A stretch of 64,000 bases of DNA. Source: Panacibacter ginsenosidivorans (GTDB lineage Bacteria; Bacteroidota; Bacteroidia; Chitinophagales; Chitinophagaceae). A program made the translations under genes and the position numbers. The notes under the pieces are model-generated. The model had not been told where the DNA came from. It worked only from the letters and a program-made list of their open reading frames with translations, and did not search any database. The DNA is taken from positions 3,723,501 to 3,787,500 of the forward strand of contig NZ_CP042435.1 in NCBI RefSeq assembly GCF_007971225.1, written 5' to 3'. The first letter of the stretch is position 1, and each line of letters starts with the position of its first letter. Below are positions 359 through 59,398 of this stretch, one piece after another.

Positions 359-2263
359 ATGCAAAAAGGACAGATAAGGGTTCATACGGAGAACATCTTC
401 CCGATCATTAAAAAATTTCTTTACAGCGAGCATGAAATTTTTCTGCGTGAGCTGATCTCTAACGCTACCGATGCTACGCAAAAACTGAAAACGCTTTCAT
501 CAATTGGCGAAGCAAAAGGCGATCTTGGCGAACTGCGCATTGACATTAGCATCGATGCGACGGAGAAGACATTAACGATTGCCGACCGTGGTGTGGGTAT
601 GACTGCCGAAGAAGTTGATAAATACATTAACCAGGTGGCATTCAGCGGCGCTGAAGAGTTCCTTGATAAATATAAAGACGCGAATATCATCGGGCATTTT
701 GGTCTTGGTTTTTATAGCGCCTTTATGGTGAGTGAGAAAGTGGAAATTTATACAAAGAGCTATCGTGAGGATGCTAAAGGTGTTTACTGGAGTTGCGATG
801 GCAGCCCTGAATTTGAATTGTATGAAATAGATAAGGAAGACCGCGGAACAAAAATTGTTTTGCATCTGAATGAAGAGAGCAAAGAATTTTTAGAAGCAGA
901 TCGTGTACGCGGAATACTGGAAAGATTTTGTCGCTTCCAGGCTGTGCCTATTTTCTTTGAAGACAAGCAGATTAATAATCCCAATCCTATCTGGGTTAGA
1001 AAACCTTCTGAACTTACCACAGAAGATTACCAGAATTTTTATAAAGAATTATATCCTTACAGCGAAACACCTTTGTTCTGGATTCACCTGAATGTTGATT
1101 ATCCTTTTAATTTAACGGGTGTGTTGTATTTCCCCAAGATCAAACAGAGTTACGAAATACAAAAAGATAAAATTCAATTGTACAGTAACCAGGTTTTTGT
1201 AACAGATGAAGTGAAGGATATTGTTCCTGAATTCTTGATGTTGTTGCATGGTGTAATTGATAGCCCGGATATTCCGTTGAACGTTAGTCGTAGCTATTTG
1301 CAGGGTGATCCGAATGTGAAAAAAATAAATTCTCACATTACAAAGAAAGTTGCTGATAAGCTTGATGAAATATTCCGCAATAACAGAAGTGAGTTTGAAG
1401 AAAAATGGGATAGCCTTGGTTTGTTTGTGAAGTATGGTATGATGACCGATGAGAAGTTTTTGGAAAAAGCAAACAAGTTTTTGGTGATGCAGGCCTCCCC
1501 AAACCCCTCCGGTGGAGGGGCTTTAAAGAAGGAGGCTTCTGATATCACTCCCCCACCGGGGGAGAAGGAGGGGGCTTTTTATACCCTTGAAGAATATAAA
1601 ATAGCTACGGAGACTTTACAGAAAAATAAAGATGGCAAACAGGTTATTATTTACACAACAGATCCTATTCAGCAGGATGCTTATATACAGGCATGCGTTG
1701 CAAAAGGTTATATAGTTGTAAAGCTGGAAACGCTGGTTGATGCAGCTTTCATCAACAACATGGAAATGAAATGGGAAGGTGTGCACTTTGTGCGTGTCGA
1801 CTCAGACATTGTTGATAACATCATCGACAAACAGGAAGCAACAGAAAGTGTGTTGAGCAAAGATGAAGCTGAACAACTGAAAACTATGTTTGGTAAAGAA
1901 ATGCATAACCTGCATGTAACAGTTGAAGTAAAAGGCTTAAGTCCTGAGACTGCGCCGGTAATTGCAACACGTCCAGAGTTTATGCGCCGCATGAAAGATA
2001 TGGGTGGTATGGGTGGCGGTATGGCTTCATTCTATGCAACCATGCCTGATGAAGTAACGCTTACTGTAAATGGTAATCACCCGATCTATCAATCGTTGCT
2101 GAAAGAATCTGATAAAGACAAACAGGAAAAGCAGATCAATAATCTTGCAGACCTTGCATTGTTATCACAAGGTTTGTTGAAAGGAAATGATCTTACCAGC
2201 TTTATCAACAGAAGTGTGGAGTTAATGCAGGGAGAGAAGAAGAGTTTGATAGTGGAAGCATAA
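359..2263 (+). CDS. htpG: Molecular chaperone HtpG (Hsp90 family)
   Basis: Cytosolic ATP-dependent chaperone, 634 aa, a normal length for Bacteroidota HtpG. The GHKL ATPase domain (about residues 1-200) shows FLRELISNATDA with the catalytic Glu, ADRGVGMT (ATP lid aspartate/glycine) and GHFGLGFYSAFMV. The middle domain has LNVSRSYLQGD with the arginine contacting ATP. The start at 359 gives the family-typical MQKGQIRVHTENIFPII. Residues 379-405 are an extra loop encoded by G/C-rich palindromic repeat DNA (reported separately); reading frame is kept on both sides. It is monocistronic, with a terminator at 2311-2339. Confidence 0.97.
   Translation: MQKGQIRVHTENIFPIIKKFLYSEHEIFLRELISNATDATQKLKTLSSIGEAKGDLGELRIDISIDATEKTLTIADRGVGMTAEEVDKYINQVAFSGAEEFLDKYKDANIIGHFGLGFYSAFMVSEKVEIYTKSYREDAKGVYWSCDGSPEFELYEIDKEDRGTKIVLHLNEESKEFLEADRVRGILERFCRFQAVPIFFEDKQINNPNPIWVRKPSELTTEDYQNFYKELYPYSETPLFWIHLNVDYPFNLTGVLYFPKIKQSYEIQKDKIQLYSNQVFVTDEVKDIVPEFLMLLHGVIDSPDIPLNVSRSYLQGDPNVKKINSHITKKVADKLDEIFRNNRSEFEEKWDSLGLFVKYGMMTDEKFLEKANKFLVMQASPNPSGGGALKKEASDITPPPGEKEGAFYTLEEYKIATETLQKNKDGKQVIIYTTDPIQQDAYIQACVAKGYIVVKLETLVDAAFINNMEMKWEGVHFVRVDSDIVDNIIDKQEATESVLSKDEAEQLKTMFGKEMHNLHVTVEVKGLSPETAPVIATRPEFMRRMKDMGGMGGGMASFYATMPDEVTLTVNGNHPIYQSLLKESDKDKQEKQINNLADLALLSQGLLKGNDLTSFINRSVELMQGEKKSLIVEA
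1493..1573 (+). repeat. Palindromic repeat inserted in frame in htpG
   Basis: 81 bases encoding residues 379-405 (ASPNPSGGG...PPPGEKEG). The DNA contains two nested palindromes: GCCTCC..GGAGGC enclosing CCCCTCCGGTGGAGGGG, then CTCCCCCACCGGGGGAG. The same type of word occurs in spacers at 20441-20470 and, degraded, at 2266-2291. The flanking protein (KFLVMQ / FYTLEEYK) reads as uninterrupted Hsp90 middle domain. Confidence 0.75.
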
Positions 2264-2310
2264 ATGCCCCCAGCCCTTAAAGGGGAGTTGAAAACATTAT
2301 AAATTTTAAA

Positions 2311-2370: not shown

Positions 2371-2398
2371 GGGCTGTGGTTGCGTCGCACACTGAAGC
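2371..2398 (+). repeat. Intergenic core repeat, truncated copy
   Basis: GGTTGCGTCGCACACTGAAG keeps the left half of the core (GTTGCGTCGCAC) but loses the TTGTAC end. It is probably a decayed copy. Confidence 0.6.
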
Positions 2399-6660: not shown

Positions 6661-6793
6661 AAGCCCGGCGTTTCAGTTTTATGGCATCTTTACTTGCGTC
6701 GCACTCTTGTACTTCCTGATCAATGTTCAGCAAAGAACAATGCGTAAAAGAGTGCGACGCAACGATGCTTTATAGTAATATAACAGCCCGGCT
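6661..6793. repeat. Composite inverted pair of core repeats (most complete palindromic unit)
   Basis: The forward core TTGCGTCGCACTCTTGTAC (6694-6712) faces the reverse core GTAAAAGAGTGCGACGCAAC (6744-6763). Outer ends AAGCCCGGC (6661) and GCCCGGCT (6785-6792) form terminal inverted repeats, and TGGCATC/GATGC sit at matching places inside. The total of about 133 bp resembles a small non-autonomous mobile element or a REP-doublet. Confidence 0.85.
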
Positions 6794-20336: not shown

Positions 20337-20412
20337 ATGAACCAGGCTTCCGTATTTCATAGCATCCAGGTTGCGTCGCACTCTTGTACGCTGCATCTTT
20401 TAGCAACAAGAG
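20337..20412 (+). repeat. Intergenic core repeat, class A, between the M16 genes
   Basis: TATGAACCAGGCTTC at the left end, core GTTGCGTCGCACTCTTGTAC (20370-20389), then TTTTAGCAACAAGAGAAC. It is a full-length single element, 10 nt after the first M16 stop. Confidence 0.9.
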
Positions 20413-20440
20413 AACCTTACCGAATGTTACAAAGTTTATA

Positions 20441-20470
20441 AAGTCCCCCACCGGGGGATTTAGGGGGCCT
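20441..20470. repeat. CCCCC/GGGGG palindromic spacer word
   Basis: AGTCCCCCACCGGGGGAT followed by TTAGGGGGCCT. It is the same kind of sequence as that inserted in frame in htpG. It lies 16 nt before the second M16 gene. Confidence 0.7.
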
Positions 20471-20486
20471 ATCAATCAATTATACA

Positions 20487-22565
20487 ATGAAAAAAATATT
20501 TATAGCAGCCACAGGTTTACTGTTTGTAACAGCAACAATGGCGCAATCAGCTTTAGACAGAAGCCAAAGACCCAAGCCTGGTCCTGCTCCTGTTATTTCT
20601 TTCAAGGATCCTGTAATGTATAAGCTGCCAAACGGTATTACTGTTTTGGTTGTTGAAAATCATAAACTGCCAAAAGTATCTGCAACATATTCTATAGATG
20701 CTGGTCCAATAACTGAAGGCAGCAAAGCAGGCACGCTCGATATTATGGGTCAGATGCTCGGGGAAGGAACTACAAAAATGACCAAGGCACAATTTGATGA
20801 AGCAGTAGATCAAATGGGTGCAGATGTAAGTCTCAGCGCAGGTGGGGGAAGTGTTGGTGCACTTACAAGATATTTCGATAAGGCCTTTACTTTAATGACA
20901 GAAGCTTTGAAAAGCCCTGCATTTACACAGGAGTCTTTCGATAAAATAAAATCACAAACACTTACCGATCTTAAGTCAAACGAAAAAAGTGCAAAAGCTA
21001 TTTCAGCAAATGTAGTAAGTGCGTTAGCTTATGGCCTTGATCATCCCAACGGTGAGTTTACAACAGAAGCAACAGTAAATAATATTACACTTGATGATGT
21101 GAAGAAAGCTTATGCTGCATACATCACACCATCACGCGGTTATTTAACTTTTGTTGGGGACATTACACCTGCACAGGCAAAGGCTTTGGCAGAAAAAACA
21201 TTAGCAACATGGAAAGGCGTTGCGTTAACATTACCACAATTAAAAACAGTTGCTAATCCTGATAAAACAGAAATAGATCTTGTAGATGTGCCTAATGCGG
21301 TACAAAGTGAAATAACCGTTACCAATCTTGTTTCGTTGCCAATGAGCAGTCCTGATTATTTTCCTGTGTTACTTACCAATCAAATTCTTGGTGGTGGTGG
21401 AGATGCAAGATTATTCATGAACCTTCGTGAACATCACGGTTTTACTTATGGTAGTTATTCAAGAGTTAATGCAGGGAGATTCCAGACAACATTTGGTGCA
21501 ACAGCTTCCGTACGTAACGATAAAGTTGATAGCGCCGTTGCAGAAATATTACACGAAATAGATACAATCCGCACCAAAAAAGTTTCTGCTGATGAATTGG
21601 CAAATGCAAAAGCAATTTATAATGGTTCATTTGCATTAGGTCTTGAAAACCCTGCTCGTACAGCAGGTTTTGCAAGCAATATTCTCATCAATAATTTGCC
21701 AAAAGATTTTTACAGAACTTACCTGCAAAAAATAAATGCAGTTACTGTTGATGATGTACAACGTGTAGCGCAGAAATATTTTAATTATAGTAACACACGT
21801 ATTGTTGTAGTTGGTAAAGCTGCTACAGTACAAGCAGGTCTTGCAAAGCTTGGCTACGAAGTAAAGATGTATGACAAGAATGCAAAACCTGTTGCAACAA
21901 AATCAACTGCTGCAGTTAATATGACCGCAGACCAGGTAGTTCAAAAGTTTATTACCGTAAGCGGTGGTGCAGATGAATTGAAGAAGATCAATTCAATGGT
22001 GATGACTGCCAGCATGACTATCCAGGGCATGCAGCTTGATGCGGTTTCTAAAAAATTAGCTCCAAACATGGAGCTTACAGAAATAAGCATGAACGGACAG
22101 GTTGCAATGAAAGAAGTATTTGATGGCACAACGGGTTACCAGGCACAGATGGGTAATAAGTCAGATATGGGTGCTGATGAGATTGCACAGAAAAAAGATG
22201 TAAAAGGTATTTTTCCGCAGTTGTTTTATAATGATGGGAGTTACAAACTCGAAGTTGCAGGCATAGAAAAAGTGGGCGATGCAGATGCATATAAAGTAAA
22301 GATCACCACAGCTGCAGGTAACGAAAGCACCGAATATTATGATGCAGCTACAGGCTATCTTGTAAAGCAGGAATCTGTTGTAAAGCAGGGTGGCATGGAA
22401 ATACAGCAGTCCACAGAATTAAGTAATTACAAAAAAGTAGGTACTGTTATGTTGCCTTTTACTTATAATGTTTCCGTACAAACGCCGCAAGGCAACCAGG
22501 ATTTTACGATGGAAGCAAAAGAATATAAATTAAACGAAGCAATAGCGGCAGACGAGTTTAAGTAA
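20487..22565 (+). CDS. M16 family non-catalytic partner with C-terminal extension
   Basis: 692 aa; signal peptide MKKIFIAATGLLFVTATMAQ. Two M16 domains span about 30-460, but at the zinc site the sequence is GTLDIMGQMLGEGT, so HxxEH is missing. YGSYSRVNAGRFQTTFGA is the R/Y substrate-binding strand of the partner subunit. Residues about 475-692 form an additional beta-rich domain (GMQLDAVSKKL... FKVEA-like repeats) resembling LolA/LolB-like or DUF-type outer membrane lipoprotein folds; this assignment is weak. It is co-directional with the catalytic gene, 160 bp apart, with repeat DNA between. Confidence 0.92.
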   Translation: MKKIFIAATGLLFVTATMAQSALDRSQRPKPGPAPVISFKDPVMYKLPNGITVLVVENHKLPKVSATYSIDAGPITEGSKAGTLDIMGQMLGEGTTKMTKAQFDEAVDQMGADVSLSAGGGSVGALTRYFDKAFTLMTEALKSPAFTQESFDKIKSQTLTDLKSNEKSAKAISANVVSALAYGLDHPNGEFTTEATVNNITLDDVKKAYAAYITPSRGYLTFVGDITPAQAKALAEKTLATWKGVALTLPQLKTVANPDKTEIDLVDVPNAVQSEITVTNLVSLPMSSPDYFPVLLTNQILGGGGDARLFMNLREHHGFTYGSYSRVNAGRFQTTFGATASVRNDKVDSAVAEILHEIDTIRTKKVSADELANAKAIYNGSFALGLENPARTAGFASNILINNLPKDFYRTYLQKINAVTVDDVQRVAQKYFNYSNTRIVVVGKAATVQAGLAKLGYEVKMYDKNAKPVATKSTAAVNMTADQVVQKFITVSGGADELKKINSMVMTASMTIQGMQLDAVSKKLAPNMELTEISMNGQVAMKEVFDGTTGYQAQMGNKSDMGADEIAQKKDVKGIFPQLFYNDGSYKLEVAGIEKVGDADAYKVKITTAAGNESTEYYDAATGYLVKQESVVKQGGMEIQQSTELSNYKKVGTVMLPFTYNVSVQTPQGNQDFTMEAKEYKLNEAIAADEFK

Positions 22566-45600: not shown

Positions 45601-45636
45601 AAAAAGGGGAACGAAATATTTCGTTCCCCTTTTTTA
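45601..45636. terminator. Bidirectional terminator between kynA and tsf
   Basis: Near-perfect palindrome of 17-bp arms (AAAAAGGGGAACGAAAT / ATTTCGTTCCCCTTTTT) flanked by A and T runs on both sides, between two convergent genes. Confidence 0.92.
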
Positions 45637-59317: not shown

Positions 59318-59398
59318 TGAACCAGGCTTCTGAATAAGTATTAAACATCGTTGCGTCGCACTCTTGTACGCTTTGTACTTTATTCCACATAAGAACGA
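59318..59398 (+). repeat. Intergenic core repeat, class A, between porX and the HD gene
   Basis: TATGAACCAGGCTTCTG, core GTTGCGTCGCACTCTTGTAC (59350-59369), then GCTTTGTACTTTATTCCAC and ATAAGAACG. Complete; lies in the divergent promoter region. Confidence 0.92.

Follow-up and report, generated by a model that had tools for sequence, protein, structure and literature searches.

A translated palindromic repeat in the HtpG chaperone of Panacibacter ginsenosidivorans and its candidate link to DUF559 endonuclease elements

Introduction

The htpG gene of Panacibacter ginsenosidivorans (Bacteroidota, Chitinophagaceae) contains a G/C-rich palindromic segment that is read through as part of an Hsp90-family chaperone, and the question arises where this segment came from and by what means it could have entered the gene. 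The locus lies in a stretch of 64,000 nucleotides (contig NZ_CP042435.1, positions 3,723,501 to 3,787,500 of the forward strand), referred to below as the window. A preliminary description made from its letters had proposed a repeat-derived insert of 27 residues in a loop, with the reading frame kept, had likened it to the palindromic elements of Rickettsia, and had named an alignment of related HtpG proteins and a genome search for the palindrome as checks. Both have now been carried out, together with a search for an enzyme to which such palindromes might be tied.

The palindromic segment of HtpG

The features of the window are listed in Table 1. Residues 379-405 of HtpG correspond exactly to a segment with two exact hairpins, and the open frame of 634 residues is intact across it, as had been described. 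The length of 27 residues holds for the segment itself, but the net gain is only 22 residues when the same-genus genome G058 is taken as reference. Each hairpin has a C-rich foot on its own strand, the composite being two mutually inverted monomers. The like palindrome that had been pointed out near 20441-20470 is indeed present as an intergenic monomer with the third hairpin of this type in the window; the word "identical", however, does not hold, as the two HtpG monomers are related and their stem sequences differ. Altogether 11 GC-rich inverted repeats were counted in the window against a mean of 3.0 in five block shuffles, and the HtpG hairpins are two of the 11. Folding of the 101-nt composite as a single strand was not exceptional (z -1.54; 17 of 200 shuffles equally good), and what speaks for the HtpG palindromes is their repeat family together with the two exact hairpins, not the fold of the whole composite. 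The proposed loop placement fits an AlphaFold model in which residues 383-404 (pLDDT below 50) are predicted between short strands at 376-379 and 407-409, the model being of low confidence as a whole (mean pLDDT 64, pTM 0.39, alignment of 25 sequences).

Table 1. Position of the HtpG palindromes and of other repeats in the window
Feature	Position	Strand	Remarks
htpG, 634-aa Hsp90-family chaperone	359..2263	+	open frame unbroken through the insert
palindrome-derived segment, HtpG residues 379-405, ASPNPSGGGALKKEASDITPPPGEKEG	1493..1573	+	net gain of 22 residues over same-genus G058
left monomer: C-rich foot GCCTCCCC, AAAC, hairpin CCCCTCC-GGT-GGAGGGG, CTTT	1489..1524	+	covariance model 38.5 bits, E 3.6e-7; training copy
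exact hairpin CCCCTCC-GGT-GGAGGGG	1504..1520		inside the HtpG segment
19-base spacer between the inverted monomers	1525..1543	+
right monomer, inverted; reverse complement AAAAGCCCCCTCCTTCTCCCCCGGTGGGGGAG	1544..1579	-	covariance model 37.6 bits, E 5.7e-7; training copy
exact hairpin CTCCCCC-ACC-GGGGGAG	1548..1564		inside the HtpG segment
GCCCCCAGCCCTTAAAGGGGAGTT	2266..2289		directly 3' of the htpG stop
core of second dispersed repeat, (G/C)TTGCGTCGCACTCTTGTAC	2379..2390	+	example
core of second dispersed repeat	6752..6763	-	example
core of second dispersed repeat	20370..20381	+	example
core of second dispersed repeat	59350..59361	+	example
solo intergenic monomer, same family	20439..20474	-	ends 12 bp before the ATG at 20487; covariance model 35.8 bits, E 1.5e-6; training copy
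third hairpin of the HtpG type	20444..20458
inverted repeat AAAAAGGGGAACGAAA-TA-TTTCGTTCCCCTTTTT	45601..45634		16-bp arms, terminator-like

Three further repeats of the window are recorded here as separate observations. The sequence directly behind the htpG stop codon looks like a decayed palindrome with the general shape of the others. A second dispersed repeat, different in sequence from the palindromes and far denser, has a 12-base core with 30 matches (at most one mismatch) in the 64-kb window, where 0.14 would be expected. The third is the terminator-like inverted repeat of Table 1.

The HtpG loop in related genomes

The HtpG of G058 is identical to that of the window at 576 of 614 aligned residues, and it has MQDAREGKFYTL where the window has MQ, the 27 residues and AFYTL. 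The comparison covered 116 HtpG loci of the family, counting that of the window and some that occur in both of two collections. Of these, 113 were parsed; two of the remaining three (L033 and L062) are without the insert by eye and one (L117) gave no frame. A recognisable GC-rich palindrome is present in the loop at only four of the 116 loci. Besides the window these are L165 (GL140_5 MAG), where the left monomer is identical to that of the window over GCCTCCCCAAACCCCTCCGGTGGAGGGGCTT, L127 (a Ferruginibacter MAG), where the palindrome has a GAA loop, and L014, with CCTTCTCC-AAA-GGAGAAGG. The expected absence of the insertion from relatives was thus borne out, and an old loop common to the family was rejected across these loci. 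Long loops without a palindrome are found in several other lineages (L011, L013, L015), and because of these and of the four palindromic loci the loop is seen to be a tolerant place that has changed repeatedly. Six loci (L013, L015, L104, L113, L114, L116) share a long non-palindromic loop of the NKSTTTITKEDGTTEEK type in the same place, possibly a decayed insertion.

A dispersed palindrome family

When 161 bases around the insert were used as a DNA query against the 5.53-Mb genome, other copies were found at E values of 2.4e-10, 5e-6, 1e-5 and 3e-5, the best match, at the 3' end of argB, sharing 97% identity across 38 bp. A degenerate pattern gave 17 matches at 12 places and its reversed control none. 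A covariance model made from 16 copies recognised at least 28 genomic copies at E<=0.2, among them the 16 training copies, which match by construction, and 33 at E<=10; the figure of 28 is a lower bound since 150 of 235 first-look candidates were scored. The genome search therefore turned up a family of about 28 members where the preliminary description had pointed to two places. The end type typical of this family, named R1 in this analysis, is GCCCCCTNNAACTCCCCC-GGT-GGGGGA, and a second type, for which the name ST1 was likewise coined, is CCTCACCCC(T/C)AACCCCTCTCC-NNN-GGAGAGGGG; both types are found repeatedly as ends of the DUF559 elements described below.

It could be argued that the HtpG segment arose without any mobile element, as an ordinary loop expansion that acquired its GC-rich composition by chance, since the loop varies in length within the family and long non-palindromic loops occur in L011, L013 and L015. 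This is hardly credible in view of the near-identical DNA elsewhere in the genome, the occurrence of an identical monomer at this loop in a second lineage and the empty sites in relatives, and the repeat family rules it out. The comparisons support the reading of the segment as an in-frame insertion of a dispersed palindromic repeat into a loop.

Ten of the 28 copies lie in frame in gene bodies, one breaks a frame, five are at gene ends, including two at argB, and 12 are outside recognised gene bodies, gene names having been taken from NCBIfam. The ten in-frame copies occur in eight genes: ribD, icmF (two copies), htpG (two copies), ispG, a UvrD/Rep-like helicase gene, paaD, alaS and treA. With 10 of 11 genic copies in frame, the probability under a chance of one third is 1.3e-4, if all events are independent, and this distribution is therefore taken to reflect selection. 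In a palindrome of the glycogen-debranching enzyme gene (L085, G000:C1:5495665-5495700) a frame break lies inside the palindrome itself, and the frame of this gene is uninterrupted in the relative G047 (G047:C93). Functional RNA or terminator hairpins that only happen to lie in genes would agree with the intergenic position of about 12 of the 28 copies, and with the fact that some copies supply a stop codon or sit just before a start codon; such a role is nevertheless very improbable for the family, as a terminator would be expected to do harm inside the gene bodies where ten copies are in frame.

Compared with G058, the products are longer here by 9 residues in alaS, 8 in paaD, 5 in ispG, 4 in the uvrD-like gene and about 14 in icmF; treA is 6 residues longer, the G058 comparison being a 65%-identical match. 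The ribD product is of equal length in G058, where an apparent decayed palindrome is seen, and this copy appears to predate the split of the two genomes. A model of insertions of constant length fails, with net gains against G058 of 12-66 bp and ribD unchanged. No target-site duplication was seen by eye at the sites compared with G058.

DUF559 domains inside host genes

Two genes of this genome have a DUF559 domain in frame. In icmF the domain is encoded at C1:2345352-2345672 and is followed, after about 50 bp, by an R1 palindrome (C1:2345267-2345302), and NCBIfam names both DUF559 and icmF in that frame; on the left, the nearest palindrome is some 55 codons upstream of the domain, with host sequence in between. 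In aroC, the chorismate synthase gene, the domain (G000:C1:1692975-1693430; L228, L268) has the inverted ends CCTCACCCCTAACCCCTCTCCAAAGGAGAGGGG and CCTCACCCAAACCCTCTTCAAAGGAGAGGG. A profile search (PF04480) of 60 genomes of the family gave 70 matches in 27 genomes. The domain itself is about 110 aa long, and of the 50 strongest matches (E<=3.4e-25) 30 are in long open frames (282-1380 aa) and 20 in short ones (119-213 aa). Hosts were named by NCBIfam for ten frames: leuS and metH three times each, aroC twice (once in this genome), metG and adenine deaminase. In relatives the in-frame domain adjoins palindromes inside leuS, metH, metG, aroC and icmF. One leuS (L213, G013:C90) has DUF559 inserted in frame at two separate places, both of them with a palindrome pair of their own. 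In a sample of 198 genomes of the phylum DUF559 was found in 83 at E<=1e-20, and among the matches listed there are again many frames of 600-1484 aa.

NCBIfam detected no intein or Hint domain at E<=1e-10 in the ten DUF559 frames and the icmF frame, only DUF559 and the host enzyme, and the 27 residues in HtpG leave no room for a protein-splicing domain. The E-x-D motif is present in 33 of 33 in-frame DUF559 domains, and a stricter DF...ExD pattern in 31 of them. In nine of ten pairs dN/dS was about 0.09-0.29, ratios that are rough because dS exceeded 1 in all nine, and the tenth pair gave no estimate; by this measure the predicted nuclease is shown to be under purifying selection.

Of the 26 in-frame copies in a tree of 37 domains, 24 fall into a single clade (99/94) without any short-frame member, and the icmF copies of three genomes likewise group together (100/99). 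A model of homing only, with each DUF559 lineage tied to one host site, fits icmF and does not fit LeuRS site A, the nine copies of which formed one clade in none of 200 bootstrap trees, although the well-supported branches alone do not force non-monophyly.

Palindromic ends and nuclease-less sites

Of the 70 matches 44 loci were examined, and these reduce to 37 unique domains, 26 in frames of at least 250 aa and 11 in shorter ones. Among the 26 domains in long frames, 24 have an exact GC-rich hairpin within 150 bp to the left or right, and in 16 both flanks have one; the corresponding figures for the 11 in shorter frames are 4 and 2. Control windows of the same frames had such a hairpin in 10 of 223 cases. 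In the 24 of 33 in-frame domains for which both ends were found, the left end and the reverse complement of the right end are on average 0.64 identical within an element, 0.52 between elements and 0.33 on the same strand, and none of 1000 permutations reached the within-element value. The two palindromic ends of an element are shown by this alignment to be, on average, inverted repeats of each other. Palindromes of the R1 type are present (E<=0.01) in only 8 of the 44 loci, the others having other palindrome types or none. An R1 example is icmF of G060, in which monomers with a GGT loop, the loop also seen in the G060 HtpG, stand on both sides of DUF559; the left monomer closest to the domain has the orientation of the right one, and an inverted monomer lies further out.

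Several sites are found with the nuclease in one genome and without it in another. At the start of argB a DUF559 unit is present in G038, G060 and G061, and an inverted palindrome pair alone in this genome (its left monomer is weak, E 3.2). One site in metH has a DUF559 unit in G043 and a single palindrome in G038. The aroC of G058 has no DUF559 but retains PGY and, next to it, the left palindrome minus one inner stem pair; sequence comparison shows it as a nuclease-less remnant. A pair laid out like that of HtpG, SPNPSGGGELEEMNSEIQKASPTGEVEGGL, is present in G038 (L259). In G058 neither DUF559 nor, with stricter filters, R1 copies were found, and its ST1 hairpins have all eight stem pairs in 0 of 4 cases, against 7 of 9 in this genome. 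A DUF559 domain, and with it a parent element at the HtpG site, was seen in none of the 113 parsed HtpG loci.

The association was also followed over whole genomes. DUF559 occurs, in frames of 409-1308 aa, in all four genomes that have a palindrome in the HtpG loop, for which the chance is 0.04 given 27 positive genomes of the 60 in the sample. The R1 counts of these 60 genomes, which are lower bounds (stricter filters, at most 113 candidates scored per genome), are correlated with the DUF559 counts (Spearman 0.32, p 0.014); the correlation is modest partly because R1 recognises one palindrome type. DUF559 is present in 8 of 11 genomes with R1 and in 19 of 49 others (p 0.043; Fisher p 0.07 without the own genome), so that 19 genomes have DUF559 without R1.

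The repetitive extragenic palindromes (REPs) of Escherichia and Pseudomonas are moved by RAYT, a Y1 tyrosine transposase, and the foot-plus-hairpin shape and the inverted pairs of the present palindromes recall REP and BIME structures; Y1 genes are, moreover, widespread in the family (43 of 60 genomes). It is all the same quite improbable that RAYT has moved them. The PF01797 profile had no match in this genome, with matches in 5 of 14 control genomes, and none in the copy-rich G012 (72% complete), whereas G058 has two Y1 genes and no R1 palindromes. Furthermore, R1 counts are uncorrelated with Y1 counts (Spearman 0.08, p 0.54; 60 genomes) and the consensus is without a GTAG end. For this genome RAYT mobilisation is disfavoured by the profile searches.

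A more serious competitor is that palindromes and DUF559 are separate parasites, the palindromes spreading by other means and DUF559 entering them, or the space between them, where they are already tolerated. Solo palindromes outnumber DUF559 in this genome (28 R1 copies against two DUF559 copies, in aroC and icmF, with an R1-type end at only one), a single R1 copy occurs without DUF559 in three genomes, the additional icmF palindromes lie across host sequence, and the LeuRS site A copies never came out as one clade. Such independence is still considered rather unlikely. The ends of one element match each other, in inverted orientation, better than they match the ends of other elements; chance entry would be expected to split a palindrome rather than to leave a complete hairpin at each end; and no other mobiliser of R1 was found, Y1 being the one that was searched for by profile.

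Proposed explanation

The reading preferred here is that the HtpG insert is probably a small, non-autonomous copy, lacking the nuclease, of a DUF559 element that has palindromic ends and is translated. A full element would consist of a foot and hairpin, a gene for DUF559 (a Vsr-like PD-(D/E)XK endonuclease) and an inverted foot and hairpin. No stop codon interrupts such an element over its whole length, so that it can lie in frame within a housekeeping gene, and the nuclease would then become an additional domain of the gene product. The spacer between the two HtpG monomers is interpreted as the place that the DUF559 gene takes in full elements. The mobility of the element and the role of the nuclease in it are inferred from sequence comparison: the DUF559 protein would recognise the palindromic ends and cut DNA, copies of the element would be pasted in by break repair, and the protein would also act in trans on nuclease-less copies such as that in HtpG. 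Likely sources of the nuclease in this genome are the DUF559 domains of its own AroC and IcmF. Copies inside genes would persist only if, with their given length, frame and position in a loop, the host protein still works.

A wider proposal can be put forward more tentatively, at a little less than even chance. Bacteroidota would possess a class of elements that are neither transposons nor inteins, in which a stop-free, palindrome-ended DUF559 unit spreads as a translated, unspliced domain of essential enzymes; the dispersed palindromes, that of HtpG included, would be its nuclease-less offspring, and DUF559 would be the missing dedicated enzyme of translated palindromic repeats, possibly also in Rickettsia and other phyla. 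The leucyl-tRNA synthetase, methionine synthase and chorismate synthase of a number of Bacteroidota are predicted to have an internal nuclease domain. Insertions of this kind add new peptide segments to old proteins, of which HtpG is an example.

Comparison with known systems

Rickettsia palindromic elements (RPE), described by Ogata and Claverie, are short palindromic repeats that are inserted in frame and translated in many unrelated conserved genes. The parallel drawn in the preliminary description is sound as far as the style goes, as here too short palindromes lie in frame in coding genes (ten in eight genes, with one frame-breaking copy); it does not extend to membership in the RPE family, since neither end of the 16-copy consensus has the CGTC tetranucleotide. 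The palindromes described here differ also in that they bracket an encoded endonuclease. In a 2013 survey the CGTC REPs, RPE-4 and RPE-6 among them, are said to "apparently lack a dedicated transposase", and REPs inside genes are noted in other phyla (PMC3733652). For the movement of translated palindromic repeats the link to DUF559 offers a concrete and testable candidate enzyme.

With the GTAG REPs (REP, BIME, REPIN) and their RAYT the present palindromes have in common a foot and hairpin, occurrence as single copies or inverted pairs, dispersal and an occasional position in genes. They differ in that the consensus of 16 copies is without GTAG at the foot (one copy, L041, has AGTAG before it), that this genome has no Y1 transposase, and that the partner nuclease is of the PD-(D/E)XK type. 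RAYT subclass 2.6 of Bacteroidetes is described as flanked by atypical structures (PMC6006769).

The HtpG insert resembles MITEs in being short and non-autonomous and in having terminal inverted repeats in common with a longer element that has coding capacity (the R1 ends at the icmF DUF559). In contrast to MITEs, each end is itself a palindrome, the putative parent encodes DUF559 and not a transposase, and the element is stop-free and translated through. Neither a target duplication nor a constant insert length is visible against G058.

Vsr-like homing endonucleases exist, for example I-Bth0305I. The proposed parent, though not the HtpG insert, is like inteins and homing endonucleases in having an in-frame nuclease in essential genes at sites that recur across genomes. 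It differs from them in that no splicing domain was found in the scanned frames, that the insert should stay in the protein, that several unrelated sites are occupied in one genome and that nuclease-less copies with palindromic ends are present. DUF559 is described as a Vsr-like nuclease domain in a study where a DNA damage response of a Caulobacter methyltransferase mutant is reported to require the DUF559 protein VsrA (PMC12907096), and on the strength of VsrA it is plausible that the domain acts on DNA in vivo. Searches of the open-access literature turned up no paper that connects DUF559 with palindromic repeats, subscription papers being outside their scope. Against these known systems, the translated palindrome in HtpG is by itself a further case of a known phenomenon, and it is the tie to DUF559 that is new.
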